DNA of 42,691 nt from a virus, in the IMG/VR virus record IMGVR_UViG_3300009183_000151, positions 1 through 42,691 of that record. The stretch is one strand, 5' to 3'. Shown one piece after another: positions 12,680 through 42,275 of this stretch. The stretch's first letter is position 1. Every line of letters starts with the position of its first letter. Below the pieces are notes generated by a model, which was given only the letters and a program-made list of their open reading frames with translations, did not search any database and was not told the origin of the DNA. The translations under genes were made by a program, and so were the position numbers.

Positions 12680-13660
12680 TTAAGTTTTATGATTCGTGAA
12701 TTCCAGTTTTTTGGTTTTTTCAACAACTTTTTTGAATGATTGCATGATTTGTTGGCTTGTTAATTCAGTCATGCATGGTTTGACATTTTGCTTTGATTTT
12801 GGGCATTGTATAAACATGAAGCATGGTCCGCATTCCCAGTCGCCATTGTCTTTGTGTTTTTGGACAAGTTCAAAATCAAAGTATTTGCCGTAAACTTTTC
12901 CATTTGTGAAAGAGAAAATACCAACTAGAGGTTTTTTCAATGCTCCTGCTATGTGGAATGTTCCTGTGTCGATTGAAATTACATATTCTGCTGCTTCAAC
13001 AAGACCTACCCAAGACTCTAATTCGATGTTTATAAATTGTGGTATATTCATCATTTGGAATATTTCGATTGATGAATCATGAATTGTAAAAACAAAATAT
13101 CCTTCTTCTTGTAGAAGCTTACATGTTTCGTAAATTTGTTGATCTGTAAGGCTTTTTGCTTGTCCGAATTCACAAGTTGTTGATTTGGTGACGAATAATA
13201 CAGTTGGGAGTTTTTTATCGTTAATTGAATTGAGTGCTTCTTTATATATTTCAATATTTTTTGCTTGAAGGTGACATTTGTGATTGTTCAGTTTTACTCC
13301 ACAATGTCTTGCCCATATATCGCTTCTGTGTAGAGTATTTGATCCTAAGTGCATGCTTTCGTGTACTCTGCATGCAGTACTGATGTCATATATGATTCCA
13401 TATTCTCGTTCTTTTATTTTTTCAATTGGGATTGTTTTTGCAAAAGGTTGATCTGATGCCAGTTGTAAGTATTTTTGAGGACAGCAATAATGTAAATCAA
13501 TTTCTGAAAATGTTGTACTAAAATCTTCAAACATCATCCTTTGCATGACGATGTCACCATATCCTCCGTATTTTCTTTTAATTAGAACTTTATTGCGACG
13601 AATGAAGTGTTCCTTCAATGTAATTGGATTTATTTGTTTTTTCTTTACATAGCGGAACAT
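12680..13660 (-). CDS. GT9-type glycosyltransferase (heptosyltransferase-like)
   Basis: 326 residues. The GT-B fold of the ADP-heptose:LPS heptosyltransferase family is indicated by the N-terminal loop KRKYGGYGDIVMQ, LPTVLFVTKST, and the donor-site block AAEYVISIDTGTFHIAGALKKPLVGIF, the hallmark of GT9. A C-terminal Cys pair (CGPCFMFIQC) may bind metal or form a disulfide. With the HldE-like enzyme at 32661 it suggests transfer of a heptose-type sugar. Start ATG 13660 lacks a strong ribosome site. It is in a minus-strand group with the nuclease-like gene. Confidence 0.72.
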   Translation of the reverse strand: MFRYVKKKQINPITLKEHFIRRNKVLIKRKYGGYGDIVMQRMMFEDFSTTFSEIDLHYCCPQKYLQLASDQPFAKTIPIEKIKEREYGIIYDISTACRVHESMHLGSNTLHRSDIWARHCGVKLNNHKCHLQAKNIEIYKEALNSINDKKLPTVLFVTKSTTCEFGQAKSLTDQQIYETCKLLQEEGYFVFTIHDSSIEIFQMMNIPQFINIELESWVGLVEAAEYVISIDTGTFHIAGALKKPLVGIFSFTNGKVYGKYFDFELVQKHKDNGDWECGPCFMFIQCPKSKQNVKPCMTELTSQQIMQSFKKVVEKTKKLEFTNHKT

Positions 13661-13706
13661 AAATATGGTGTCTCTTCCGTACTACCTCAATTTATTTCAA
13701 TTATAA

Positions 13707-13832
13707 ATGTTCAGGATGTCTGTATGGATACCAGATCATTTTGAAGTAAAAGAAAGACCCAATACAGGAGCGGGATGCTTTATGGCAGCGTTCAAGGGAA
13801 ATTCCAAAGTTTATGCAACAAACTTAGGTTGA
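13707..13832 (+). CDS. Possible 41-residue protein
   Basis: A short frame from ATG 13707 (or ATG 13716) to TGA 13832 reads MSVWIPDHFEVKERPNTG then a Cys/Met/Ala segment and YATNLG. No good ribosome site. In its favour: protein-like composition, and a strong hairpin right after the stop. Function unknown; it may instead be chance. Confidence 0.3.
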   Translation: MFRMSVWIPDHFEVKERPNTGAGCFMAAFKGNSKVYATNLG

Positions 13833-13836
13833 GACA

Positions 13837-13866
13837 AGGGGGCCAATCGTGTTGATTAAGCCCCCT
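13837..13866. terminator. Strong hairpin between convergent gene ends
   Basis: AGGGGGC (13837-13843) pairs with GCCCCCT (13860-13866), with an inner AATC/GATT stem (13845-13848 with 13854-13857). It spans the stop codon of the mutase gene and follows the possible 41-residue frame. No T tract on either strand, so it may stabilise 3' ends rather than terminate. Confidence 0.4.
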
Positions 13867-14992
13867 GATTCATAAATGTCTTCCACTTTGACAATGCTGA
13901 ACCTATAGTCTGATCTATGTCCAAATACTTGTATTCTCCTAGTCTACCTCCAAATGTAACATCGTTGTGATTTATTTTCAGATTAGCATATTTGTTGTAA
14001 ATGAAACTGTTCTTTTCATCCCTTATTGGGTAGTAAGGTTCAGGATGGTCTTTGAATGATATTGGTATGTCAAAACTCACAACTGTTTCTTCTTTTTCTT
14101 GATTTTTTGTTTCATAATGTTTTGGCGTTTCATTGTGGAAATGCTTGTGTTCAATGCTTCTGATGTATGGTTTTGATCCATCTACATGGTTGAAAACTGC
14201 CGTTCCTTGGTAGTCGCCATAGAATGTCTTGTGTTCAAAAGTTAAAGTGTTGTATTCCAAGAATCCGTACTCATAATCGTAAAATTTATCTATTGGTCCT
14301 GTGTAAACAAGATGATTGGCGTAATCTCTCCATTTGTTTCTCATGGTGAAAAAGTCAACTCCAAGATTGATATCGATTCCATCAAGCATTTTTCTAATTG
14401 TTTGGGAATATCCTTCTTTTGGCATTCCTTGATATTTTGTTGTAAAATAATTTTCTTCGTAAGTTAGTCTTATTGGAAGTCTTTGAATGATGGAGGCAGG
14501 TAGTTCGGATGGTTCCTTTAGCCATTGCTTTTTTGTGTAGTGATAGAAAAATAAATCATAAATTTCACGACCAACCCTGTCCAAAGCCCATTCTTCAAAG
14601 TTTCTTGGATTATCGCAAGGAATTCTTACTTCTTGCAGTTTTCTTTGAGCATCTTCTGGTGTGACAACTCCCCACAATTGGTGAAGTGTCATCATGTTGA
14701 TTGGGAAAGAGAAAACTTTGCCTTGAGACAAAGCCTTGGGTTTGTTGATGTAAGGAATTATTTTTGTGAATTTATTGATGAATTCCCAAACTTCTTCACT
14801 TTGAGTGTGGAATATATGCGCTCCATATTCGCTAACCAATATTCCGTTCTGCCATCTTTTGTCATAAGTTGCTCCAGCAATGTGGTTATTTTTGTCTATG
14901 ACAAGGCATTTTTTTCCTGCATCTGTTGCCTTGCGGGCAAAGGTAGAACCGAAAAAACCAGATCCAACTATGAGAAAATCATACTTTGCCAT
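13856..14992 (-). CDS. glf: UDP-galactopyranose mutase
   Basis: 378 residues, normal for the family. Interconverts UDP-galactopyranose and UDP-galactofuranose using reduced FAD. The FAD-binding start YDFLIVGSGFFGSTFA and LVIDKNNHIAGATYD are followed by the family block SEYGAHIFHTQSEEVWEF, FPINMMTLHQLWG, FYHYTKKQW and late GRLGEYKYLDIDQTIGSAL. The start is ATG 14992 with AGAGGAAAAATA upstream; its first base is the last base of the preceding stop (TAATG), so it is coupled to the GT9-like gene. Points to Galf in a phage- or host-surface glycan. Confidence 0.92.
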   Translation of the reverse strand: MAKYDFLIVGSGFFGSTFARKATDAGKKCLVIDKNNHIAGATYDKRWQNGILVSEYGAHIFHTQSEEVWEFINKFTKIIPYINKPKALSQGKVFSFPINMMTLHQLWGVVTPEDAQRKLQEVRIPCDNPRNFEEWALDRVGREIYDLFFYHYTKKQWLKEPSELPASIIQRLPIRLTYEENYFTTKYQGMPKEGYSQTIRKMLDGIDINLGVDFFTMRNKWRDYANHLVYTGPIDKFYDYEYGFLEYNTLTFEHKTFYGDYQGTAVFNHVDGSKPYIRSIEHKHFHNETPKHYETKNQEKEETVVSFDIPISFKDHPEPYYPIRDEKNSFIYNKYANLKINHNDVTFGGRLGEYKYLDIDQTIGSALSKWKTFMNQGA

Positions 14993-15819
14993 TATTTTTC
15001 CTCTCTGAGATAATCGCTTATACGACCAGCAAGGTAGGCATCGCAATATTCTTTTTGTGAACTCCATCCAAATTCATAATGTTCTTTGTTGCCTAAGAAA
15101 CCTGTAACCCAAAAGTCGATATTATTTTCCATTCTGTATCCCCAAGAGGTGAATGTTTTTACTTTTGCGGCTGGTCCCCATATGGCGCTCCAACTATCAC
15201 AAGCCAAAACCAAATCTGCTTCGTAAATTGTAAAAGCCAACGATTCCAGAATCGACCATGAACCTATTTTGTTAATTGTCTTCTCTATTGTTTCTTTTTT
15301 CATGCATGATTGATATGGATCGTTTGGTCCTCCAACCATTAATATTTTGAAACCTTTTTCATGAAGAATGTTTACACATCTATCCCATGTAGGCACATAC
15401 CAGTCCAAAAACTGCTGAGGCTTCATCTCAAGGCTTACTGGTTGCAGAACTGCAACTTTTTCATTTTGCTTTTTTTCTGGTATGTACTTTCTTAAATCAA
15501 CCCATTCCTTGATGTCATGACTGTTACGAAAGTTCATTGGCTGGAATATTTTACAATTATATTTTTTACTGAAATAAAATGAACTGTCATTGTCGTAGTC
15601 GATGTCATATTCAATTTTTTTGATGAAATTACAAGAATCAAGAATTGTCTTAACATTTTGGCAACTTTTTTTCACTTTGCCGTGCGATTTGAATATTGGG
15701 GATGTGTGGACGATTGTTGATTGGAGATTTCTCTCTGTCATTGCGATATTGGCTCTGCACAGGTTAAGTCCTGTATCTCCAATCGCTCCTGTTTCAAAGT
15801 AAATATGTAGGTCTTCCAT
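14992..15819 (-). CDS. Glycosyltransferase family 9-like protein
   Basis: 275 residues from ATG 15819. The start LHIYFETGAIGDTGLNLCRA resembles the GDxxL loop of GT9 enzymes, and the C-terminal half has FKILMVGGPNDPYQS, SWSILESLAFTIYEADLVLACDSW and GPAAKV, matching the 'station in the queue and market-price' donor region of GT-B folds where GT9 has DTG. It is more diverged than the gene at 12680. Coupled to the mutase gene through TAATG, so it may use the UDP-Galf made there. Confidence 0.6.
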   Translation of the reverse strand: MEDLHIYFETGAIGDTGLNLCRANIAMTERNLQSTIVHTSPIFKSHGKVKKSCQNVKTILDSCNFIKKIEYDIDYDNDSSFYFSKKYNCKIFQPMNFRNSHDIKEWVDLRKYIPEKKQNEKVAVLQPVSLEMKPQQFLDWYVPTWDRCVNILHEKGFKILMVGGPNDPYQSCMKKETIEKTINKIGSWSILESLAFTIYEADLVLACDSWSAIWGPAAKVKTFTSWGYRMENNIDFWVTGFLGNKEHYEFGWSSQKEYCDAYLAGRISDYLREEK

Positions 15820-20681: not shown

Positions 20682-20799
20682 GATTTGCTCCGTGATTTCG
20701 CTGTTTGGTGTTTGCAGCAAGTTATTTGGGTTTTAATCTTCTGCACAACACAATTATAGGTATTTACAAACAAAATACTACTTGCCTTTTACTTTCTCT

Positions 20800-20820
20800 T
20801 ATAATAGATGGTGGGAGGTT
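20800..20820 (+). repeat. Leader element, copy 1 (TAGATGGYGGGAGGYTT)
   Basis: TAGATGGTGGGAGGTTT at 20805-20821 is nearly identical to 21884-21900 before the next gene, with only two C/T differences. It includes the ribosome site of the amidoligase gene and overlaps a TATAAT at 20800. Confidence 0.35.
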
Positions 20821-20824
20821 TTCG

Positions 20825-21847
20825 ATGGATTCATATAAAGAAAAAATCGATTTGAATTACCTCCGCAGATTTGGCGCAGAAATCGAAATCAATGCTTTTG
20901 ATTTTAGAAGTAGGCCAGTTGGACATGGTGAAGGCAAGTTGCCAGAAGGCACATACTATGTAGCCAACTTGGTTCAAAAATCATCAGAAAATACAGTAAA
21001 AATTCACAAATGGAGTTATGATCACAACAACACATCATGGATAATCAAGCCAGATAGTAGTTGCGGCATTGAAATCTGCACTCCAGTCCTTAAAGGCTGG
21101 ATTGGTCTAATGGAAACTTGTAGGGTTATTGAGGCTCTTGGTAACGACAAGAAGGTAAATGCCGATGACCGTTGCAGTTTCCATGTTCATGTTGATGTGA
21201 GCGATTTAACTGAACAAGAAGTGGCAACAATTATTACTTGGTGGGTAAAATGCGAGCCTGTTTTCATGGATTCTGTTCCAATACTCAGGAAAAGAAATCA
21301 ATATTGCCAACTTTTAGGTCAGTCGGATATATTTGAAAAAGTAGAAGATAGCTTTCATGCAAATGATTATCTAATCAGAAGACTAGGATCTTGCAAATAC
21401 TATACAATCAACACTTACCATTATCACAACAATAAAAGAAAGACAATTGAATTCCGCATTATGGATGGAGATTGCTGTCTTGACCCATGGATTGCTAAGA
21501 ATTATATTCGACTTTTGCTGCATTTCATTGAAAGGTCATTGAAATTTGGAATGCCAAATAATTATTTTGAGGGAGATAAGTGGTCAGGTTACTGCTGGCT
21601 GGACCCCAAAGATGTTTTTGATTTCCTTGGATTCAACAAAAAGACTGATTTAAGTCTGGGAGCCAAGCAAGTTTACGAATGGTTTCTTGATAGGCTTCAC
21701 TTAAATTGTAATTATTCATTGAATCATGGAATAATGGGCAATAACGCAAGGCGCTATGCCCAGAAGGAAATAGAAGAAATGTGTTTTGAATATGGAAATA
21801 TGTCGGTCGATTACGATGATATATTTAATTTCAAATATCGTATATAA
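20825..21847 (+). CDS. Amidoligase-family protein (glutamine synthetase-like fold)
   Basis: 340 residues from ATG 20825, 6 nt after GGGAGG. It matches the putative amidoligase family: opening strand RRFGAEIEIN, WIIKPDSSCGIEICTPVL, the His-rich strand CSFHVHVDVSDL, and YYTINTYHYHNNKRKTIEFRI followed by DPWIAKNYIRLLLHFIE. These enzymes are thought to use ATP to join a carboxylate to an amine, on peptides, proteins or cell-wall pieces. No GAT-II or other usual partner of bacterial amidoligase operons is next to it; neighbours are small unknowns. Substrate unknown. A TATAAT at 20800-20805 lies just upstream. Confidence 0.75.
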   Translation: MDSYKEKIDLNYLRRFGAEIEINAFDFRSRPVGHGEGKLPEGTYYVANLVQKSSENTVKIHKWSYDHNNTSWIIKPDSSCGIEICTPVLKGWIGLMETCRVIEALGNDKKVNADDRCSFHVHVDVSDLTEQEVATIITWWVKCEPVFMDSVPILRKRNQYCQLLGQSDIFEKVEDSFHANDYLIRRLGSCKYYTINTYHYHNNKRKTIEFRIMDGDCCLDPWIAKNYIRLLLHFIERSLKFGMPNNYFEGDKWSGYCWLDPKDVFDFLGFNKKTDLSLGAKQVYEWFLDRLHLNCNYSLNHGIMGNNARRYAQKEIEEMCFEYGNMSVDYDDIFNFKYRI

Positions 21848-28617: not shown

Positions 28618-28875
28618 TTAGGATTTATATCTTGAGAATTTTTGTACTGTTTCGTAACCATGTTGGCCTTGGATAATTGCTCCTAGTTGTGGATGAGCGC
28701 CTTGTAGCCATCTGATGCCAAATTCTCTTTCTTGGCATTGGTGAACGATATGTTCGTCTAGTATTTTTATTGAACTATATTTTTCAATCTTTGTTTGAGC
28801 TTTCCCATCCCGACTTCCGTCAATACCATAAATCCTAATCCTCTCTGCTGGCAATACTGGTTGCATGCTGTCCAT
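28618..28875 (-). CDS. Small protein overlapping the nuclease gene, or its -1 frame extension
   Basis: The frame runs from ATG 28875 (or ATG 28866) to 28618, giving 85 residues. The first third lies inside the nuclease gene in another frame and seems unlikely as free coding; the part after 28767 (HIVHQCQEREFGIRW, HPQLGAIIQGQHGYE) looks like real protein. Either a small gene with an internal start, or a -1 frameshift product of the nuclease. No slippery heptamer of the classical type is seen at the join. Confidence 0.4.
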   Translation of the reverse strand: MDSMQPVLPAERIRIYGIDGSRDGKAQTKIEKYSSIKILDEHIVHQCQEREFGIRWLQGAHPQLGAIIQGQHGYETVQKFSRYKS

Positions 28876-29438
28876 TTCGCATTATTCCTTGGCAATGTTG
28901 TTTGGTTTGCCGGTTTGATTTCCCAAATTTCGATTCTTCCGTCATCGAATGCAACCTTTAGATCAGGGTTGTATTCATGAATGTTTCCTTCAAATGTATA
29001 TTGGACCTTAAGTGGTTCTACTTCGTATCCAATAACTTCTGGCATTGCTTCCAAGCATTCGTAGACATCGCATTCCATTCCTGATCGATAGTGCATTTCC
29101 TTGCCTCCGTTTTTGTTGGATATCATGTATCCTTCACGGAACTTGGGCTTGCGTTTTTTCAGACCTCCGCCCTTGGCTGACTGGTCTTTCCATATAATAG
29201 CCTTCATCTGTCCGATTTTCGGCGTAATTTTTTCATGCGGATGCTTTGTTTTGTAGTGTGTTCGTACACAACGAACGGGAGCGCCACAACGAGCAAGAGG
29301 ACATAGAACATAATCTCTGCCTTCTTCGTGAGATTCGATAATATGATTTTTATAGTTTTCAAAATCATCATGTCCCACCCCGCACACAAAGCATGTGTAG
29401 ATTCTTTTCCCGTTATCTTTTGGAAATGGAAGTGTCAT
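28767..29438 (-). CDS. Zinc-finger plus TnsA-like endonuclease
   Basis: 223 residues from ATG 29438, which overlaps the preceding stop as ATGA. Two zinc-finger-like units open it: YTCFVCGVGHDDFENYKNHIIESH and CPLARCGAPVRCVRTHYKTKH. The second half is a PD-(D/E)xK nuclease of TnsA type: RSGMECDVYECLEAMPEVIGYEVEPL, YNPDLKVAFDDG with the catalytic Asp, IEIWEIKPAN with E-x-K, and RGLGFMVLTEVGM. TnsA cuts transposon ends, but phage relatives work alone in DNA processing. A homing-type, recombination or packaging-linked role is possible. Part of a minus-strand operon with the nucleotidyltransferase. Confidence 0.68.
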   Translation of the reverse strand: MTLPFPKDNGKRIYTCFVCGVGHDDFENYKNHIIESHEEGRDYVLCPLARCGAPVRCVRTHYKTKHPHEKITPKIGQMKAIIWKDQSAKGGGLKKRKPKFREGYMISNKNGGKEMHYRSGMECDVYECLEAMPEVIGYEVEPLKVQYTFEGNIHEYNPDLKVAFDDGRIEIWEIKPANQTTLPRNNAKWTACNQYCQQRGLGFMVLTEVGMGKLKQRLKNIVQ

Positions 29439-30100
29439 TTTTCTTTTCTTCTTTCTTTCCATCTTTCAAAGTCATGGGGATAATCGAAGTCTTCAGTCCA
29501 ATCGTCGATGTGTGCTATGTTCGGATAATTTTTTAATTCTTCTATATCAGTGCATCCTTCTATGTCATTGATCTCTTTATTTGCGAGTTTGGCCATGAGG
29601 CGATAATTTGACAGTCTCATGATTTGTTTTTCAATAATTTCATCAATATAATTTGATATTATTTTGTTCATATTTTTTTTGAAAGACAATGCGAATGTTT
29701 CCTTATATTCGCATCCTGTGAAGCTTGATGGTGACAATCTGGCAACCCATCTCCAATCTAATTCGTGATTGAAAGTGAGATCAATTGCTTTATCGGTGTA
29801 GTAGGCATCTCCTGCCATGAGAATAGTTTCGCTTTCATTTGACCAAAGAAATTCTGATGATTTGAAGATTGAACAATCTTTCCATTTTGGGTCTTGATGT
29901 GGTATTAGTAAATTGCATCCTTCAATTTTATATTTTTCATCAGATCCGACTATGTGGATGTCGTTGGTATATTTTTTAACTTGGCGAACAATTCTTTCGA
30001 TTAAAATTTCGCCTTCTATTTCGATGAAATGTTTTTTAACGCAGAGATAATTTTCCCATCTCTTTCCATCTCCTCCAGCTTGTATTATGATTCTTTTCAT
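29435..30100 (-). CDS. Sugar nucleotidyltransferase-like protein
   Basis: 221 residues. The start RIIIQAGGDGKRWENY is the nucleotide loop of the MobA/GlmU/RfbA-type fold, followed by KKHFIEIEGEILIERIV with its conserved Lys, and TILMAGDAYYTDKAI where the metal Asp of these enzymes sits. It would load a sugar phosphate onto a nucleotide or act as a related transferase. It overlaps genes on both sides by 4 bp. Together with HldE-like (32661) and Glf it points to phage-made activated sugars. Confidence 0.68.
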   Translation of the reverse strand: MKRIIIQAGGDGKRWENYLCVKKHFIEIEGEILIERIVRQVKKYTNDIHIVGSDEKYKIEGCNLLIPHQDPKWKDCSIFKSSEFLWSNESETILMAGDAYYTDKAIDLTFNHELDWRWVARLSPSSFTGCEYKETFALSFKKNMNKIISNYIDEIIEKQIMRLSNYRLMAKLANKEINDIEGCTDIEELKNYPNIAHIDDWTEDFDYPHDFERWKERRKEK

Positions 30101-32660: not shown

Positions 32661-34055
32661 ATGGAAAATATTTTGCAATTCTTAGAAAGAGACAAAAATG
32701 GCCCAAGATTGAAAATTGCAGTCTTGGGCGATTCTATGATTGATGAATATTTTGATGTGCAAGTTAAGAGGATATCGCCGGAATATCCGATACCAATACT
32801 TCAATCAGAGTGCAATGATCCACAAGTTGTTCCCGGTGGAGCGGCTAATGTTGCATGTCAGTTTGGCAATTTTAACGCAGATGTCAGCCTTGTTTCCTTG
32901 ATTGATCAGGAAGCGGTTAAGATTTTTGCAAAATCAGGAATAGAAATTAACTCTGCTTCTCAGATCGTACAAAATAAAATTCCACGCAAGAAAAGGTTTT
33001 TCTCAGACAATTTTCAGGTATCCAGAATTGATTTTGAAAAACAGAATTATGGGTTGACTGATGATAATCTTCAAAATGCCGTAAAGAATTTGTTATCTTA
33101 TTTCGGGCAGCAGCACTATCAGGCTGTTATTTTTTCTGATTACGGTAAGGGTATTTTTAATTATTTTGACAATTCAATCTTGAAGAAATTTCCAATCACA
33201 ATTGTTGATCCTAAGAATGGCGATATTGCAAAGTGGCGTGGATGTACGGTATTCAAGCCAAATCGTGAAGAGGCTTTGCGTTTGAGTGGCAAAAAGACAG
33301 TTTTTGATGCTGGAATTTACTTGTCTGAATTTCTTGGTTCATCTGTTGTTATAACAGAAGCTTCTAAAGGTGTAAGTGTATTTGATAATGGTGTTTTTCG
33401 TGAAATAAGACCAGATATAAGTCCAGCAGTTGCTGAGTCGGTCATAGGAGCGGGAGACTGTTTTGTTGCATTCTTGACTATGTTCCTTCTAAGAGGTTTT
33501 AGTCTTATTGATTCTTCAGAAATGGCATTTAAGGCTGGAACATTGTATGTTTTGAACAAAAAGAACAAACCTATAACTAAGCATGATCTTTTATTTTCAA
33601 TTGATCATGTTGGTTCAAAAATAATTTCTTTTGATGATTGTGGCTTTTTGTGTGACAGAAAGTTCAAGCTTGTTTTCACGAATGGATGTTTTGACATTTT
33701 GCACAGGGGCCATATTGAATCATTTAAGTTTGCCAAAAGTCAGGGAGATAAACTTGTTGTTGGTGTTAATTCAGATGCAAGTGTTGGCAAGTTAAAGGAT
33801 GGAAGGCCCATCAATTCGATTAATGATCGAATTTCGCTCTTAGCTTCTTGTGAGTATGTCGATTATGTCATTGTTTTTGATGATGATACACCTTTGGAAC
33901 TTATCAAGAAAATAAGTCCCGATGTTTTGGTTAAGGGCGAGGATTACAGGGAAGAAGATATTATCGGACATGGAATAGTGCCGGAAATTAAAAGATGCCC
34001 TCTAGTTGAGGGCATCAGCACAACAAAAATCATCGAGAAAATCAAGAAAATTTAG
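32661..34055 (+). CDS. hldE: HldE-like bifunctional sugar kinase / cytidylyltransferase
   Basis: 464 residues, close to the 477 of E. coli HldE. The N-terminal PfkB-type kinase (1 to about 325) shows VLGDSMIDEYFDVQVKRISP, PGGAANVACQFG and the catalytic loop VIGAGDCFVAF. The C-terminal nucleotidyltransferase (about 335-464) shows FTNGCFDILHRGHIE, VVGVNSDASVGKLKDGRP and VKGEDYREEDIIG, ending with ISTTKIIEKI. HldE makes ADP-heptose precursors for LPS. The GT9-type gene at 12680 could use the product. Bacterial ADP-heptose is also an innate immune signal in animals, though relevance here is unknown. The 3' end overlaps the convergent Cys-rich gene by 4 bp. Confidence 0.85.
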   Translation: MENILQFLERDKNGPRLKIAVLGDSMIDEYFDVQVKRISPEYPIPILQSECNDPQVVPGGAANVACQFGNFNADVSLVSLIDQEAVKIFAKSGIEINSASQIVQNKIPRKKRFFSDNFQVSRIDFEKQNYGLTDDNLQNAVKNLLSYFGQQHYQAVIFSDYGKGIFNYFDNSILKKFPITIVDPKNGDIAKWRGCTVFKPNREEALRLSGKKTVFDAGIYLSEFLGSSVVITEASKGVSVFDNGVFREIRPDISPAVAESVIGAGDCFVAFLTMFLLRGFSLIDSSEMAFKAGTLYVLNKKNKPITKHDLLFSIDHVGSKIISFDDCGFLCDRKFKLVFTNGCFDILHRGHIESFKFAKSQGDKLVVGVNSDASVGKLKDGRPINSINDRISLLASCEYVDYVIVFDDDTPLELIKKISPDVLVKGEDYREEDIIGHGIVPEIKRCPLVEGISTTKIIEKIKKI

Positions 34056-35050: not shown

Positions 35051-35455
35051 ATGCGTAGTTTTAATGAATTTATGGAATCCAAGATTTTCAATGAAAATGA
35101 CTTGGATCATTATGCTCAAGTAAGTGATGAGGCTTTGGACAATGCTTATCATTATGGCCGTTCAAAGCCCGGAACATTTGGATATGAGGCCAATAAGGGT
35201 AGCGCCAAGTTCGCTCTTAATTTGATGCAAAATGGCGAAACAGACATTGAGAAAATTTCTGATGCTATTCATAAAGGATGGGCCAGTGTGGCGACCACAT
35301 ATGATGATCCTATTTATGCGACCAAGCCTGAGAAGAAGGAAAACAGGATGAAGTTGGCAAATACTTCTTACTCTGAATTGTCAGAAGACGAGAAAGAAAA
35401 GGACAGAGTTGTTGCCAGATCTTTGCTACAAGCATACCAGCAAAATAATACTTAA
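35051..35455 (+). CDS. RyR-domain-like protein with capsid-targeting-like N-terminus
   Basis: 134 residues. MRSFNEFMESK fits the shared N-terminal pattern. Residues about 60-130 look like a RyR (ryanodine receptor) repeat: ISDAIHKGWASVATTYDD, then MKLANTSYSELSEDEKEKDR with VVARSLLQAYQ, matching the H-x-x-W and PYxELxxxEKxxDR pattern of that module. Bacterial and phage RyR domains are thought to bind nucleotides or related small molecules. AGGAG upstream fits the start. If packed in the head it could act early after injection. Confidence 0.5.
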   Translation: MRSFNEFMESKIFNENDLDHYAQVSDEALDNAYHYGRSKPGTFGYEANKGSAKFALNLMQNGETDIEKISDAIHKGWASVATTYDDPIYATKPEKKENRMKLANTSYSELSEDEKEKDRVVARSLLQAYQQNNT

Positions 35456-36715: not shown

Positions 36716-36743
36716 CCTCGGTTTTTACAACCGGGGTTTTTTT
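36716..36743 (+). terminator. Terminator after the FmdB-like gene
   Basis: CCTCGGTT (36716-36723), 5-nt loop, AACCGGGG (36729-36736) with one G-T pair, followed by seven T residues. It separates the small-gene run from the PrkA operon. Confidence 0.8.
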
Positions 36744-36819
36744 ATGTCAAATTCTGGCTTATAATGTAATCGGGTAAGTCTGTGTCATATGCAAACATCC
36801 GTAGGCCGGAGGCAATATA
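36744..36819 (+). promoter_or_regulatory. Promoter and leader of the PrkA operon
   Basis: TATAAT at about 36762 sits between the terminator and prkA; a good -35 at normal distance is not seen, so a phage-modified or extended -10 promoter is possible. The leader is about 50 nt and ends in CCGGAGG before ATG 36820. Confidence 0.4.
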
Positions 36820-38895
36820 ATGAACAAGCTGCAAAAAGTGATTTCAAATTTCAACCGTGAACAGTTCAAGGCAATCAATACTGAAATTTCTTTCTCAGAA
36901 TATATTGATCTTTGCTATCAAAATCCAAAACTCATCCGTAATTCATGGCAGACCATCTATGACATGATCATGGAAAAGGGAAGTTATCCTGTTGAGGAAT
37001 ACCGCAAGACATATGTCAATTACAAGTTTTTTGATGATCCAGATTGTCCAATCGTTGGCTTGACCCCGATGAAGGACTCTCTCGTCAAGTTTATCAAGGG
37101 AGCGGCAGGCGGATACGGGACAGAACGCAGAATTCTTCTTCTTCATGGACCTGTTGGCAGTTCAAAGTCAACTATTCTCAGACTTATCAAGAGAAGTCTT
37201 GAGAAATACAGCAAGACTGATGCTGGAGCTTGGTATAGCTTCAAATGGGTGAATCTTCCTACAGGCGCTGATGGGATCTACAACAACCCAGAATGCGAAT
37301 GCCCAATGCACGAACAACCTCTTAAGTTGCTCCCCAAGGAAGTTCGTGGACAAATCATTGCAGATATCAACAGGATTCATGAAGAAATCGCAACTCCACA
37401 AGAGAGGAGCGATATTTACACTCTCAAATGCAATGACGAACTTGATCCTCTTTGCAATTTCTTTATGAACGAACTTCTGAAGAGATACGAGGGTGACCTT
37501 CAAAAAGTTCTTGACAACCATATTAAGGTCGTCAGAAAGGTCCATTCTGAAGCCAATCGTTGTGGAATCGCAACATTCCAGCCCAAAGATGAAAAGAATC
37601 AAGACAGCACAGAGCTAACAGGTGATATTAACTTCCGTAATATCGGAAACTTTGGTTCAGACAGCGATCCAAGATCATTCTCTTTTGATGGAGAATTCTG
37701 TGCTGGCAACAGAGGAATAATCGAGTTTATTGAAGCACTTAAGCTCGATACTGCATTCCTTTATGACCTTCTTGGTGCATCCCAAGAACAAAGCATCAAG
37801 CCAAAGAAGTTTGCTCAAGTAAGCATTGACGAGGCAATTTTTTCGCACACAAACGATCCAGAATTTCAGAAGCTCAAGAGCAACCAATATATGGAAGCTT
37901 TCCGTGATCGTACAACCAAGATTGATGTTCCTTACACCCTTAGATGGAACGAAGAGCTAAGGATTCTTGAAAAGGACTATGGTCCCGGTAAAGTTCGCCA
38001 ACACATTGCTCCTCACACTCTTGAAATTGCCGCTTTGTGGAGTGTATTGACTCGTCTTGCTGATGATAAAGATGGCAAGATTAGCCTTGTCGAGAAGGCA
38101 GAACTTTATGATGGCAGGCTTCTTGCAGGATGGACTGAAGATTCTGTCAAGGAACTAAAAGACAAGTATCCCGAAGAGGGCATGAGTGGTGGGATTTCAG
38201 TTCGATATCTACAGGACAAGATTTCCAACTGCCTTGCCAACAATCATGACTATGTCAACATGTTCATGGTTCTCAATGAATTGCGTGACGGCCTTGACCA
38301 TTGCAGCTTGCTTACCAATAAGGAGCAAGTTGGCCGTTACATCACTTGTATCGATCTTGCAGTCAAGAAGTTGACTGAAATCTTGAAAGCGGAGGTTCAG
38401 AAGGCTTTGGTCGGCGATAAGGAAGCGATTAAGCGTCTTTGCTCAAACTACATCGATAACCTCATGGCATATATCAACAAGAGCAAGATTAAGGATCAGA
38501 TCACTGGTCAAGACCGCAAGCCAGACGAAAGGCTGATGCGTCAGATTGAGGAAAAGATTCAGATTCCAGATACTGGATGTGATGATTTCCGCCGTCAGAT
38601 TGCCGCCTTCATCGGTCATCTTGCTCATGAGGGCAAGAGTTTTCAATGGGATTCCAATCCTAAGCTTCGCAAGGCTCTTGAGGCGAAACTTTTCGAGGAT
38701 GTCAAGGACACCATCAAGTTAAGCGCACTCAATATGAGCGGAGCGAGTGTTGTTGACAAAGACTTGCAAGAAAAGATTGATGCAGTCAAGACAAGACTCG
38801 TTAAAGAGTTTGGATACAACGAGAGAAGTGCAACGGATGTTCTAGAATTTGTTGGCGGAATTTTCTCCCGTGGCGATCTAGCCGAAGACGAGTGA
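36820..38895 (+). CDS. prkA: PrkA-type serine protein kinase / AAA+ protein
   Basis: 691 residues (E. coli YeaG 644, B. subtilis PrkA 631). The AAA+ part (about 1-390) has LLLHGPVGSSKSTILRL (Gly110-Thr118) with Ser where many P-loops have Gly before Lys, the family-specific CECPMHEQPLKLLP, and GNRGIIEFIEALK plus QVSIDEAIFSHTNDPEF, DRTTKIDVPY around the second region and sensor elements. The C-terminal half corresponds to the PrkA kinase-like domain. In bacteria PrkA/YeaG works with YeaH and SpoVR in starvation, stress and sporulation. All motifs look intact. First gene of the triad operon, ribosome site CCGGAGG. Confidence 0.9.
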   Translation: MNKLQKVISNFNREQFKAINTEISFSEYIDLCYQNPKLIRNSWQTIYDMIMEKGSYPVEEYRKTYVNYKFFDDPDCPIVGLTPMKDSLVKFIKGAAGGYGTERRILLLHGPVGSSKSTILRLIKRSLEKYSKTDAGAWYSFKWVNLPTGADGIYNNPECECPMHEQPLKLLPKEVRGQIIADINRIHEEIATPQERSDIYTLKCNDELDPLCNFFMNELLKRYEGDLQKVLDNHIKVVRKVHSEANRCGIATFQPKDEKNQDSTELTGDINFRNIGNFGSDSDPRSFSFDGEFCAGNRGIIEFIEALKLDTAFLYDLLGASQEQSIKPKKFAQVSIDEAIFSHTNDPEFQKLKSNQYMEAFRDRTTKIDVPYTLRWNEELRILEKDYGPGKVRQHIAPHTLEIAALWSVLTRLADDKDGKISLVEKAELYDGRLLAGWTEDSVKELKDKYPEEGMSGGISVRYLQDKISNCLANNHDYVNMFMVLNELRDGLDHCSLLTNKEQVGRYITCIDLAVKKLTEILKAEVQKALVGDKEAIKRLCSNYIDNLMAYINKSKIKDQITGQDRKPDERLMRQIEEKIQIPDTGCDDFRRQIAAFIGHLAHEGKSFQWDSNPKLRKALEAKLFEDVKDTIKLSALNMSGASVVDKDLQEKIDAVKTRLVKEFGYNERSATDVLEFVGGIFSRGDLAEDE

Positions 38896-38942
38896 TGATT
38901 GAATTAACTTTATAAAAAGGTGACGATCAGTAAGGAGGATTC

Positions 38943-39164
38943 ATGACCATTCAGAACCATTGGTTACAGTCTGCTCAAGTCAAGCAACTCATGAAAGAAA
39001 TTGATGAGATTGCTATGGATATTTGGTCACAAGATGGAACTCTTGGCGATCTGTTTTCCGCCTTGAATGACGATCATACTGATCTTCTTTTCTCGATGAA
39101 GATCAAGGACTTTGCAAGCGATCCAAATGACATGTCATGCGGTATCGAGCTTGTTTCTCCTTAA
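38943..39164 (+). CDS. Small protein inside the PrkA operon
   Basis: 73 residues with AAGGAGG before ATG 38943. Acidic helical protein (VKQLMKEIDEIAMDIWSQDG, DLFSALNDDHTDLLFSMK). Bacterial yeaGH operons do not normally have a gene here, so this may be a phage-specific partner of PrkA or YeaH. Family unknown. Confidence 0.65.
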   Translation: MTIQNHWLQSAQVKQLMKEIDEIAMDIWSQDGTLGDLFSALNDDHTDLLFSMKIKDFASDPNDMSCGIELVSP

Positions 39165-39176
39165 CCAGAAAGGAAT

Positions 39177-39193
39177 CCGTCACAAGATGACGG
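39177..39193 (+). promoter_or_regulatory. Hairpin between ribosome site and start codon of yeaH
   Basis: CCGTCA and TGACGG form a 6-bp stem with a 5-nt loop. The ribosome site AAAGGA (39169-39174) lies upstream of the hairpin, 26 nt from ATG 39201 on the linear sequence, but about 9 nt once the stem is folded out. This is the layout known for T4 genes 25 and 38, where an intervening hairpin brings the ribosome site near the start. Confidence 0.55.
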
Positions 39194-39200
39194 TTAAGCT

Positions 39201-40418
39201 ATGCCTCGTCGCATTCATGAAGATTGGCAGCATTTCCGTGATGTAATTTCAGGGCGAATCAGAAAAGCCCTGAAAAAATTCATCAAGAGCGGACAGATCG
39301 TCAAAAATCGTGGAAAAAATGGCAAGATTTCCATTAACATCCCGAAAATTGACATTCCTCATATTGTTTATGGAAATAGTGGCGAGGGAGTTGGAAGAGG
39401 GGATGGTAAAGACGGAGATGTCATAGGCAAAGATCCGCAAAATGGCAAGGGAAAAGGCAATGGAGCAGGTCAAGGAGAGGCTGAAGGAATCACAATCAAT
39501 CTTGATTTGGAAGATGTCCTGAGGTTTATGCAGGACGAACTTCAACTCCCAAATCTAAAGAAAAAGCCAAATGAAATTTACGATGAAATTAAAATCAAGT
39601 ATAACAATATCAGTCTGATAGGACCAGAATCTCTTAGGCACAATAGAAGAACTCTCATGCAGACCTTGAAGCGTCAGGCTGCTGAGGGAACTCTTGAAAA
39701 ACTAAATCATGTTGCTGGAATTAAAGACCCAGTCAGAGTTCTACAGCCAATCAATGAAGATAAGAGATACAGACAATTTAACGAAATTAAAATACCAAGC
39801 AGTAATGCTTTGATTGTCTTTGCCCGTGACGGATCTGGTTCCATGGATCAGGCCAAGTGTGAAATCGTCAGTGATATGGCTTGGTGGATCGATGTTTGGA
39901 TTCGTCGTTTCTATGATCGTGTTGATCGCCTCTATGTTTGGCATGATAGTGAGGCCATGGAGGTTGATGAAAATAAATTTTATAAATATCGATTCGGAGG
40001 AGGAACAAATTGCTCCTCTGCTCTTAAATTTATTTCCAAGCAATTTGAGAACAGGTATCCTCCAGAAAAGTGGAACATTTATGTTTTCTACTTTACAGAT
40101 GGCGACAACTGGGGAGAAGACAATCAGATTTTCATTGATACTCTTGCCAATGATTTTAAGCCTAATGTAGTCAATTTTACGGGTATCACACAGATTCTCG
40201 CATCATCCTATTCTGATTCAATCAAGCATCATGTTGATGAAGCGATTAAACAAGGCAAGCTTGACAAGGATTGCGTCAGGACTGTTGCAATAGGTGGTAG
40301 TCCAGATGGAAGGTCTTTGTGGACAGCGCCAAGTTTGAGTGATGATAATAGGAATGAGCAAATCATGGAAGCAATTCAACAACTTCTAGGAAACCCAAGT
40401 AAACTATCAAGGGAATGA
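39201..40418 (+). CDS. yeaH: YeaH/YhbH family (DUF444) vWA protein
   Basis: 405 residues (E. coli YeaH 427). Typical DUF444 layout: basic N-terminus HFRDVISGRIRKALKKFI, a Gly/Lys-rich linker (about 58-95), ITINLDLEDVLRFMQDELQLP, then a von Willebrand A domain with MIDAS site FARDGSGSM (Asp210, Ser212, Ser214), FGGGTNCSSAL with the distal Thr, and YFTDGDNW with the third metal Asp. vWA proteins act as metal-dependent adaptors; this one is the usual partner of PrkA and SpoVR. It ends 1 bp before spoVR. No truncation is seen. Confidence 0.92.
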   Translation: MPRRIHEDWQHFRDVISGRIRKALKKFIKSGQIVKNRGKNGKISINIPKIDIPHIVYGNSGEGVGRGDGKDGDVIGKDPQNGKGKGNGAGQGEAEGITINLDLEDVLRFMQDELQLPNLKKKPNEIYDEIKIKYNNISLIGPESLRHNRRTLMQTLKRQAAEGTLEKLNHVAGIKDPVRVLQPINEDKRYRQFNEIKIPSSNALIVFARDGSGSMDQAKCEIVSDMAWWIDVWIRRFYDRVDRLYVWHDSEAMEVDENKFYKYRFGGGTNCSSALKFISKQFENRYPPEKWNIYVFYFTDGDNWGEDNQIFIDTLANDFKPNVVNFTGITQILASSYSDSIKHHVDEAIKQGKLDKDCVRTVAIGGSPDGRSLWTAPSLSDDNRNEQIMEAIQQLLGNPSKLSRE

Positions 40419-40419
40419 T

Positions 40420-42015
40420 ATGAGCAGTAAATTTTTTCATGGTTCTAGCCTGCTTATGGGTGACAATACCGTTCCCGGTGTTCAACTTTCAAAAGAACTT
40501 AAAGAATACATACCCAAAATTCTTCAAGCATGTCGTGATTGGGGCCTTGATTTCTATCCCACAGTTGTCCAGTTGTTGACATATGACGAAATTAGCGAAG
40601 TTGCCGCTTATGGTGGGTTCCCTGTCCGTTTTCCACATTGGTCATTTGGGATGGAGTACGAAGAGCTACAGCGTGGATATGAATTCGGTGGACACAAGAT
40701 ATATGAAATGGTTGTGAATTGTAATCCATGTTACATTTATAATCTTGCTTCAAACACTCTTGCTGACCATCTGACTGTTGTTGCACATGCGACAGGACAC
40801 AATGACTTTTTCAAGAACAATATTCATTTCAGTGCAACTGACACGAATATGATGAATAAAATGGCGAATCATTCTGCTAGGATTCGCAATTATATGAGCA
40901 GATGGGGCAAAGAAAGAGTAACTGAATTTCTTGATCATGTTATGCGTTTAGAAACACTTATTGATGGCTCAGATGCTTGGACAGATAGGGTTATAAAAGA
41001 CAGGAATATTCGTGATGAAAGAAAGTATAATAAGCCTCAATTATTGAATGTTGATAAGCAAAGGCTTTACATGGAGCCTTTCATCAATACTACTGCATTT
41101 CGTAAGAAGCAGAATGAAGATGTTCACGAGAGAGACATAGCAGACGAAATTGGCTTATTCAAGGAACCAACTAAGAACATTTTGGGATTTATTCGTGATA
41201 ATGCTCCATTAAAGCCTTGGCAAGCTGATATTGTCTCTATGCTTTATGAGGAGGCGATTTATTTCTTCCCTCAAAGACAAACTAAGGTTGGGAACGAAGG
41301 ATGGGCCTCCTTAACGGACTCTGTAATTATGGCAGAGCAGGGATTCATAAGCCTTGGTCAAAAGTCTGATGATTGCGGCATTGTTGAATACGCTGATCAC
41401 AAAATGGGTGTTCTTGGTGGGAAATACAGTATGAATCCTTACAAGTTGGGATTCTACTTATTTTCTGATATTCGTGAGCGTTGGGACAAGGGAAGATTTG
41501 GGCAAGAGTACGAAGAATGCACGGACATGCACAAGAAAGAGAATTGGGATACAGGTGCTATGCTCGGCAAGGAAAAAATCTTTGAAGTCAGGAAGTATTA
41601 TGATGACCTGACTATGATCCATGAATTCTTTACAGAAGAGTTTTGCCGAAAACAGGAATATTTCCATTGGAAACATTATCCAAACGGAGAATACAGGCTT
41701 GAATCCCGTGATTATCAAAAGATCAAGAAGGGTTTGATGCAGAGGCATGTTAATGGTGGACTTCCAGACATTAGACTCATGGAGCCAAATTACGGCGGTC
41801 GTGGAATCATGATGCTTCAACATTTTTCTGACGGAAGGCCTCTTCACGATCCTTACATTGGTGATGTTTTAAGTTCAATCCGTTTTATTTGGAATAATGA
41901 TGTTATTCTTTCAACAAACTCCGATGATGGCAAGGAAAGGGTTTATTGGCAAAGAGCCAATTACCTTGATATCACGGATAGGTCTAAATTCGACAAATCT
42001 TTGAATAATTTCTGA
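40420..42015 (+). CDS. spoVR: SpoVR family protein
   Basis: 531 residues, within the 470-560 range of the family. Motifs include FYPTVVQLLTYDEISEVAAY, GMEYEELQRGYEFGGHKIYE, NTLADHLTVVAHATGHNDFF (family form HVxGHxDFF, His123/His127), NILGFIRDNAPLKPWQ, and FPQRQTKVGNEGWAS. In most members the last block continues with a His (NEGWA..-H); here Thr-Asp follows. SpoVR is linked to spore cortex formation in Bacillus and to the yeaGH stress genes in enterobacteria; its biochemistry is not settled. Last gene of the triad; starts 2 bp after yeaH. Confidence 0.92.
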   Translation: MSSKFFHGSSLLMGDNTVPGVQLSKELKEYIPKILQACRDWGLDFYPTVVQLLTYDEISEVAAYGGFPVRFPHWSFGMEYEELQRGYEFGGHKIYEMVVNCNPCYIYNLASNTLADHLTVVAHATGHNDFFKNNIHFSATDTNMMNKMANHSARIRNYMSRWGKERVTEFLDHVMRLETLIDGSDAWTDRVIKDRNIRDERKYNKPQLLNVDKQRLYMEPFINTTAFRKKQNEDVHERDIADEIGLFKEPTKNILGFIRDNAPLKPWQADIVSMLYEEAIYFFPQRQTKVGNEGWASLTDSVIMAEQGFISLGQKSDDCGIVEYADHKMGVLGGKYSMNPYKLGFYLFSDIRERWDKGRFGQEYEECTDMHKKENWDTGAMLGKEKIFEVRKYYDDLTMIHEFFTEEFCRKQEYFHWKHYPNGEYRLESRDYQKIKKGLMQRHVNGGLPDIRLMEPNYGGRGIMMLQHFSDGRPLHDPYIGDVLSSIRFIWNNDVILSTNSDDGKERVYWQRANYLDITDRSKFDKSLNNF

Positions 42016-42065: not shown

Positions 42066-42275
42066 ATGGACGATACAAGTTTTCTTTTGACAGACGAGTT
42101 CATAGTTTTTTCACTAAAGATCAAATCTCTTTTCGACCACAAGAAGGTCAAGAAGGCTGAACTTAAAGCCTTTTATGATAAGACACAAGCGGAAATTAAG
42201 GAAATTGATTTGCAAGCAAAGTCTCTGGAAGAAGAATTTGCTAAATGGAAGGCATCACAAAAGAATGTTGAATAA
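42066..42275 (+). CDS. Small coiled-coil protein
   Basis: 69 residues with AAGGAG before ATG 42066. Residues 20-65 form a charged coiled coil (KKVKKAELKAFYDKTQAEIK). The end overlaps the membrane protein gene by 11 bp. Function unknown; own promoter just upstream. Confidence 0.6.
   Translation: MDDTSFLLTDEFIVFSLKIKSLFDHKKVKKAELKAFYDKTQAEIKEIDLQAKSLEEEFAKWKASQKNVE

Follow-up and report, generated by a model that had tools for sequence, protein, structure and literature searches.

What use does a large phage have for genes that bacteria induce under stress? The question is raised by a linear 42,691-base virus record of IMG/VR (IMGVR_UViG_3300009183_000151), referred to at its full length as the window, which carries an operon encoding PrkA, YeaH and SpoVR. 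These three proteins are widespread and strongly stress-induced in bacteria; to our knowledge, their biochemical job is not known. An earlier note, made from the letters of the window alone, had described a complete operon inside phage DNA, and had proposed that it either manages host starvation or dormancy or has a more basic job useful in infection. Here we report that the phage copies of all three genes form one clade with a uniform gene order, and that SpoVR of this clade is a site of intein insertion. The reading that we favour, with belief and doubt about evenly balanced, is that the genes constitute a functional, vertically inherited and probably core operon of huge T4-related tailed phages, in which a PrkA–YeaH machine would act on SpoVR, a predicted metalloprotein.

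The operon and its phage context

The window encodes PrkA, YeaH and SpoVR next to each other and in that order, as in the bacterial triad (Table 1; domain identities are from Pfam profile matches). PrkA belongs to the PrkA (YeaG) family, has an intact Walker A motif (GPVGSSKS) and is a sequence homologue of the solved ‘Serine protein kinase’ structure 9xip/9xiq/9xir (E 7e-206). YeaH is assigned to the YeaH/DUF444 family by its PF04285 match and the residues of its metal-ion-dependent adhesion site (MIDAS), and SpoVR to the SpoVR (YcgB) family by a PF04293 match above the cut-off together with the motifs HAxGHxxFF and NEGWA(S/T). The triad that the earlier note had called intact, complete and in the usual order is thus confirmed, with exact coordinates and strong Pfam matches, and the Walker A, MIDAS and HATGHNDFF motifs that it had listed as kept are all found in the window proteins. 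The flanking signals that it had described fared unevenly: the terminator upstream of PrkA looks real, with 12 terminator-like sites in the region where shuffles predict 4.1, whereas the ‘fresh promoter’ is unsupported, promoter-like sites being at chance level (16 against 15.3) with none on the + strand within 36737–36820. The small protein that it listed between PrkA and YeaH does not belong to the conserved set. This 73-residue protein has homologues in 25 of 57 non-redundant relatives, confined to one crown subclade; in many deep members PrkA and YeaH nearly abut, and in other members unrelated frames separate the two. It is a later addition to the operon, and as a fourth conserved subunit it was rejected for most of the clade.

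Could the operon be bacterial chromosomal DNA that was fused to phage sequence during assembly? In favour of this, the three families are bacterial and the 42.7-kb record is a linear fragment; however, 43 of the 48 open reading frames (ORFs) of the window have collinear matches on a 225-kb contig from another metagenome, extending from 36 kb upstream of the operon through its downstream neighbour. PrkA and YeaH are 87–88% identical to the copies on that contig, which places both towards the conserved end of the window's genes, 82 further contigs agree, and capsid and operon share contigs: amongst operon contigs (records of 175 to 595 kb) a T4-type gp23 capsid gene is present on 8 of 15 and a terminase gene on 6 of 15. 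Independent assemblies have therefore already refuted an artefact, to which we assign a negligible probability. The misassembly that the earlier note had named as a danger was not found, the same order being kept in the separate metagenome, and its placing of the triad inside phage DNA is supported by the IMG/VR record and by the surrounding phage replication genes, which encode PolA, a DnaB-like helicase, SSB, UvsX/RecA and thymidylate synthase.

Table 1. Features of the operon region (window coordinates; aa, amino acids)
Feature	Position	Strand	Remarks
Zinc-ribbon protein, 111 aa	36356..36691	+	PF09723 (1e-9); precedes PrkA in most relatives
Intrinsic-terminator-like hairpin followed by 7 T	36716..36736	+	between zinc-ribbon gene and PrkA
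PrkA, 691 aa; AAA+ domain and PrkA C-terminal domain	36820..38895	+	PF08298 (2e-73), PF06798 (9e-73)
73-aa protein	38943..39164	+	no Pfam or PHROG family
YeaH/DUF444, 405 aa; VWA-type domain with MIDAS (DGSGS, GGT, TDG)	39201..40418	+	PF04285 (4e-65)
SpoVR, 531 aa; motif HATGHNDFF	40420..42015	+	PF04293 (4e-105); without intein in window
Intein site 1, codon C101; VVN/(T/C)NPC in relatives, VVN/[C]NPCY in window	40720..40722	+	empty in window
Intein site 2, codon S297; NEGWA/[S]	41308..41310	+	empty in window; filled in Chloroflexota SpoVR
69-aa protein	42066..42275	+	conserved neighbour downstream of operon

Inheritance of the triad and inteins in SpoVR

Relatives were collected from IMG/VR by a scan with the window SpoVR, which yielded 29 contigs, and by a profile scan, of which the best 80 of 439 stretches encoding relatives were used; together these comprise 82 distinct contigs (up to 527 kb), alongside which we considered the 595-kb huge phage LR756511. 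At every one of these loci, as far as the contig extends, the order is PrkA>YeaH>SpoVR on one strand; at locus L012 the contig ends inside YeaH, and frameshifts are present in L158 and L185. The motifs HAxGH and DxSxS are kept in all 58 non-redundant phage sets and Walker A in 56, the exceptions (L017 and L176) being PrkA fragments cut by contig ends. Extra insertions of 0.5–2.7 kb with unrelated frames, possibly free-standing homing genes, were seen ahead of PrkA, in the PrkA–YeaH gap or ahead of SpoVR at loci L005/L006, L015, L022, L025, L129 and L150. The nearest bacterial PrkAs are ~52–54% identical to the phage copies and are drawn from many phyla; 52 of the 80 nearest bacterial loci have the phage gene order and the remainder PrkA alone or PrkA–YeaH, some of the non-matching loci being cut by contig ends.

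Trees were built from the 58 phage sets with 80 (PrkA), 58 (YeaH) and 50 (SpoVR) bacterial rows. In each of them the phage copies form a single clade apart from the nearest bacteria (support 99 for SpoVR, 99 for YeaH and 61 for PrkA), the trees being quick ones in which a few long branches are uncertain. Pairwise distances among the three genes correlate at 0.92–0.95, compared with at most 0.30 in permutations, and the ratio of non-synonymous to synonymous substitution rates (dN/dS) is 0.02–0.045 for pairs with unsaturated synonymous sites, indicative of strong purifying selection. Taken together, the single clade, the correlated distances and the low dN/dS suggest that the operon was probably acquired once, long ago, and has been inherited as a unit.

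The best sign that one of these genes matters to the phages comes from inteins. In several relatives the SpoVR open frame is ~935–980 or ~1,374 residues long, owing to in-frame inserts that run from an initial Cys to a final HN, precede a Thr or Ser and match the Pfam families Intein_splicing and LAGLIDADG_3. With a first Cys, a terminal HN, a suitable +1 residue, and Hint and homing-endonuclease domains they are putative splicing inteins; group I introns were rejected as an explanation, the inserts being in-frame without stops and without an Rfam intron match. One or both of two sites, each in a conserved motif, are occupied in 14 of the 67 distinct viral SpoVR ORFs of the clade. To explain their distribution on the PrkA+YeaH tree takes a minimum of 8 changes for the site-1 intein and of 5 for that at site 2; the SpoVR inteins therefore come and go. 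A third site is found in another huge phage: in LR756504, whose SpoVR belongs to a different lineage, a 129-residue mini-intein interrupts the NEG motif two residues before site 2. Cellular genes are invaded at one of the three sites as well, since in four Chloroflexota SpoVRs of the fetched set (L043, L046, L049 and L060) an intein lies exactly at phage site 2. The Oscillochloris SpoVR intein is 43–45% identical over its full length to phage inteins, and the same intein family is therefore present in cell and phage SpoVR; a sample of 201 Chloroflexota genomes contained five more full-length intein matches in frames of ~900 residues.

Inteins persist where imprecise loss would be costly. A search for intein domains over 26 operon-bearing phage contigs, some of which had been picked for their SpoVR inteins while other intein hosts were not preselected, recognised inteins in portal, ribonucleotide reductase, DNA polymerase III alpha, GyrB-like, thymidylate synthase and AAA ATPase genes. 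SpoVR shares intein invasion with portal, replication and nucleotide genes, and in this respect it resembles a core gene rather than cargo. The inteins are the best evidence that SpoVR matters to the phage. No intein was seen in PrkA or YeaH among the sampled loci. The ribonucleotide reductase gene of LR756511 holds two inteins, and the non-SpoVR inteins lie in contig parts L209–L219, L229, L230 and L236–L238.

A proposed mechanism and its rivals

SpoVR is a predicted metalloprotein with the putative ligand set HxxxH...NEGWAS. Residues H123, H127 and E293 do not vary across 82 SpoVRs from phages and bacteria, nor across 23 phage sequences with distant lineages among them; in an AlphaFold model (predicted local distance difference test, pLDDT, 86.7; predicted template modelling score, pTM, 0.82) the two histidines share a helix, and E293 is part of a different one. 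When the SpoVR profile was compared with bacterial M1 peptidases, the best two local alignments were NEGWA(S/T) and HxxxH (E 0.0047 and 0.021), which are exactly the M1 zinc motifs and are counted toward the idea of a metal site. A search of viral models gave a sole strong match to SpoVR, a 617-residue protein whose name is not listed. In E. coli selected on iron(III), ycgB H127Y rose to 64% and yeaG E555* to 65% in separate populations (PMC10044975). YcgB H127 is the second conserved His of SpoVR, and the mutation thus links the conserved-His site to function, short of proving metal binding.

Three points are inferred: an action of PrkA and YeaH on SpoVR, metal binding by SpoVR and a benefit in infection. 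In the proposed mechanism PrkA would form an AAA+ ring, with YeaH as its VWA/MIDAS adaptor, and the pair would use ATP to remodel SpoVR or to load metal into it. SpoVR, as client or effector, would be the working end of the set and would modify a host or phage target and so keep an infected, slow-growing or stressed cell productive over the course of a long infection. An AAA+ ring with a VWA adaptor fits client remodelling for metal insertion of the NorQ/NorD type, in which an AAA+ protein and a VWA protein together mature an iron site (PMC9976466); purified B. anthracis PrkA is an AAA+ ATPase in which kinase activity was undetected (PMC13001217). The YcgB–YeaH–YeaG triplet is co-conserved (PMC2375023). 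A more ambitious version, which we regard as a tentative proposition and somewhat improbable, is that SpoVR is essential or near-essential throughout the clade, a new metalloprotein matured by PrkA–YeaH, and that the three intein sites mark its active centre; the bacterial trio would then have a function that large phages require each time they infect.

Several observations weigh against the metalloprotein machine and its core status. Nothing in the PDB matches the fold of the SpoVR model significantly (best E 0.27), so that assignment to a known fold failed, and the overall probability of the similarity to M1 profiles is 7%. The catalytic Glu of HExxH is replaced by Ala or Val in 82 of 82 SpoVRs, and E. 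coli YcgB (L337) has NEGWAT together with HACYGH, with one extra residue between the histidines; these two features make a strict zincin doubtful, and an M1-type gluzincin/zincin peptidase was rejected, there being motif resemblance only and no catalytic Glu. The mutations selected by iron may reflect general effects on the stress regulon, and the survival of inteins argues for constraint at the motif and not for a particular function. As to core status, a capsid-first search gave 434 stretches and recruited three contigs of at least 300 kb, of which two carry the operon; none is certified complete and most records are fragments. The 532-kb capsid contig lacks the operon, which is carried by a 134-kb contig of the same sample (L129). 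The operon is probably a core gene set of the phage clade.

The main competitor is that the triad is auxiliary cargo for host physiology, mimicking the host stress programme, either sustaining a starved or dormant cell or rousing it, and being useful under certain conditions only. It draws on the sensitivity of ycgB and yeaH mutants to antimicrobial peptides (PMC2375023) and on a paper that lists SpoVR among the viral metabolic genes of an oxygen-minimum zone (PMC8940887). Genes of the auxiliary kind tend to be patchy in distribution and of recent acquisition, whereas presence and order of the triad are uniform at all sampled operon loci, its PrkA is only ~52–54% identical to the nearest bacterial one, and SpoVR holds inteins as essential genes do; we consider cargo unlikely, while granting it an appreciable chance. 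Management of starvation or dormancy, as proposed in the earlier note, would be an argument by analogy that draws only on bacterial phenotypes (PMC4664914, PMC2375023). A role in counter-defence, in which the set remodels a defence complex or blocks dormancy imposed by toxin–antitoxin systems and so neutralises the anti-phage response of the host, could be read from the repression of two toxin–antitoxin modules by YeaG in starved E. coli (PMC4664914) and from a yeaG mutation that swept through one E. coli population resistant to T7 (PMC10044975). Rapid turnover is usual for counter-defence genes, which sits badly with the low dN/dS and with genes that are always together, and we think this role very improbable.

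Rather less improbable, though still a minority view, is a PrkA–YeaH AAA+/VWA chaperone pair that works with SpoVR on head or tail proteins during virion assembly or maturation. Other jumbo phages encode a MoxR AAA+ protein and a VWA protein fused to a metallopeptidase, for which an assembly role has been proposed with a precedent in an archaeal virus (PMC7824862). Bacteria, however, use the same triad without virions, the window operon sits among replication, nucleotide and lipopolysaccharide-sugar genes, and its distance of ~70–340 kb from the gp23 gene in long contigs speaks mildly against such a role. The ‘more basic job useful in infection’ of the earlier note gains support from core-like conservation and from SpoVR inteins alongside those of replication, nucleotide and packaging genes. 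The note also fares well on ancestry: the phage copies are one clade, always together, and the genes are not placed inside different recent hosts.

That the trio is kept under strong selection and that SpoVR holds inteins argue for a basic function, not an accessory of sporulation or stress. The operon is not one phage's curiosity but a long-held block of huge phages with signs of importance, for which a mechanism can be proposed. It offers several handles: the predicted metal residues, the sites that inteins mark, natural variants among the phages to compare and, for genetics, Thermus phages in culture that bear a triad of their own.

Other genes of these contigs were noted in passing. Inference of the host from the nearest bacterial genes failed, since those genes are spread over Planctomycetota, Bdellovibrionota, Myxococcota, Chloroflexota and Calditrichota. 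Genes for a heptosyltransferase-like protein (GT9), UDP-galactopyranose mutase and an HldE-type heptose kinase/adenylyltransferase (window 12680–15067 and 32661–34055) hint at a host with heptose-containing envelope sugars. The window also encodes an aspartate/ornithine carbamoyltransferase family protein (1994–2935) and a protein with a TnsA-like endonuclease domain (28767–29462), 83% and 89% identical, respectively, in the collinear 225-kb contig, as well as a putative amidoligase and, near the operon, a weak RyR-domain match (20705–21847 and 35051–35455). A complete transfer-messenger RNA gene (Rfam RF00023, 129.7 bits) lies at 15306–15658 of locus L031, on an operon-bearing phage contig.

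Known systems

As an annotation the phage triad is not new, the Thermus phages and RsoM2USA having been annotated before, and the window set is not the first of its kind, given these phages and three huge phages. The interpretation in the earlier note is supported in part, as regards an intact triad in phage DNA. For the large clade, its uniformity and the SpoVR inteins no earlier description was found: the main text of the huge-phage paper mentions neither SpoVR nor inteins (PMC7162821), and a literature search that covered few subscription journals found nothing linking inteins and SpoVR.

In working principle the nearest parallels are the NorQ/NorD MoxR pairs (PMC9976466) and the MoxR–VWA–metallopeptidase sets of jumbo phages (PMC7824862), which likewise combine an AAA+ ATPase with a VWA partner that bears a MIDAS and with a peptidase or a client that has a metal site. 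The likeness is one of principle only, since PrkA has its own Pfam AAA family, the window AAA+ protein has no match to the MoxR family (the family search gives AAA_PrkA) and SpoVR is without HExxH. The Ralstonia jumbo phage RsoM2USA encodes SpoVR (ORF28) and PrkA (ORF30) with one YeaH-sized gap between them; the genes were not discussed as a set (PMC8504454), and they are likened here by annotation alone. All three proteins are encoded by the huge phages LR756502, LR745206 and LR756504 (634–642 kb), but as strongly diverged copies with ~25% identity to those of the window, and in LR756502 SpoVR lies ~240 kb away from PrkA–YeaH. In the Thermus phages phiYS40/TMA, phiLo and MN1, PrkA, a YeaH-like protein and SpoVR occur together in a tailed phage; unlike in the window, the order is YeaH–SpoVR–PrkA, identity is ~22–31%, the genes belong to another lineage and no inteins were seen, and in phiYS40 an extra gene precedes PrkA. 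With the bacterial prkA–yeaH–spoVR operon (E. coli yeaGH and ycgB) the phage set shares the three families, the key motifs and the order of most of the nearest loci. It differs in that the phage proteins form their own clade, the E. coli homologues being 26–29% identical, in the 73-residue gene that the crown subclade adds and in a SpoVR that often carries inteins.

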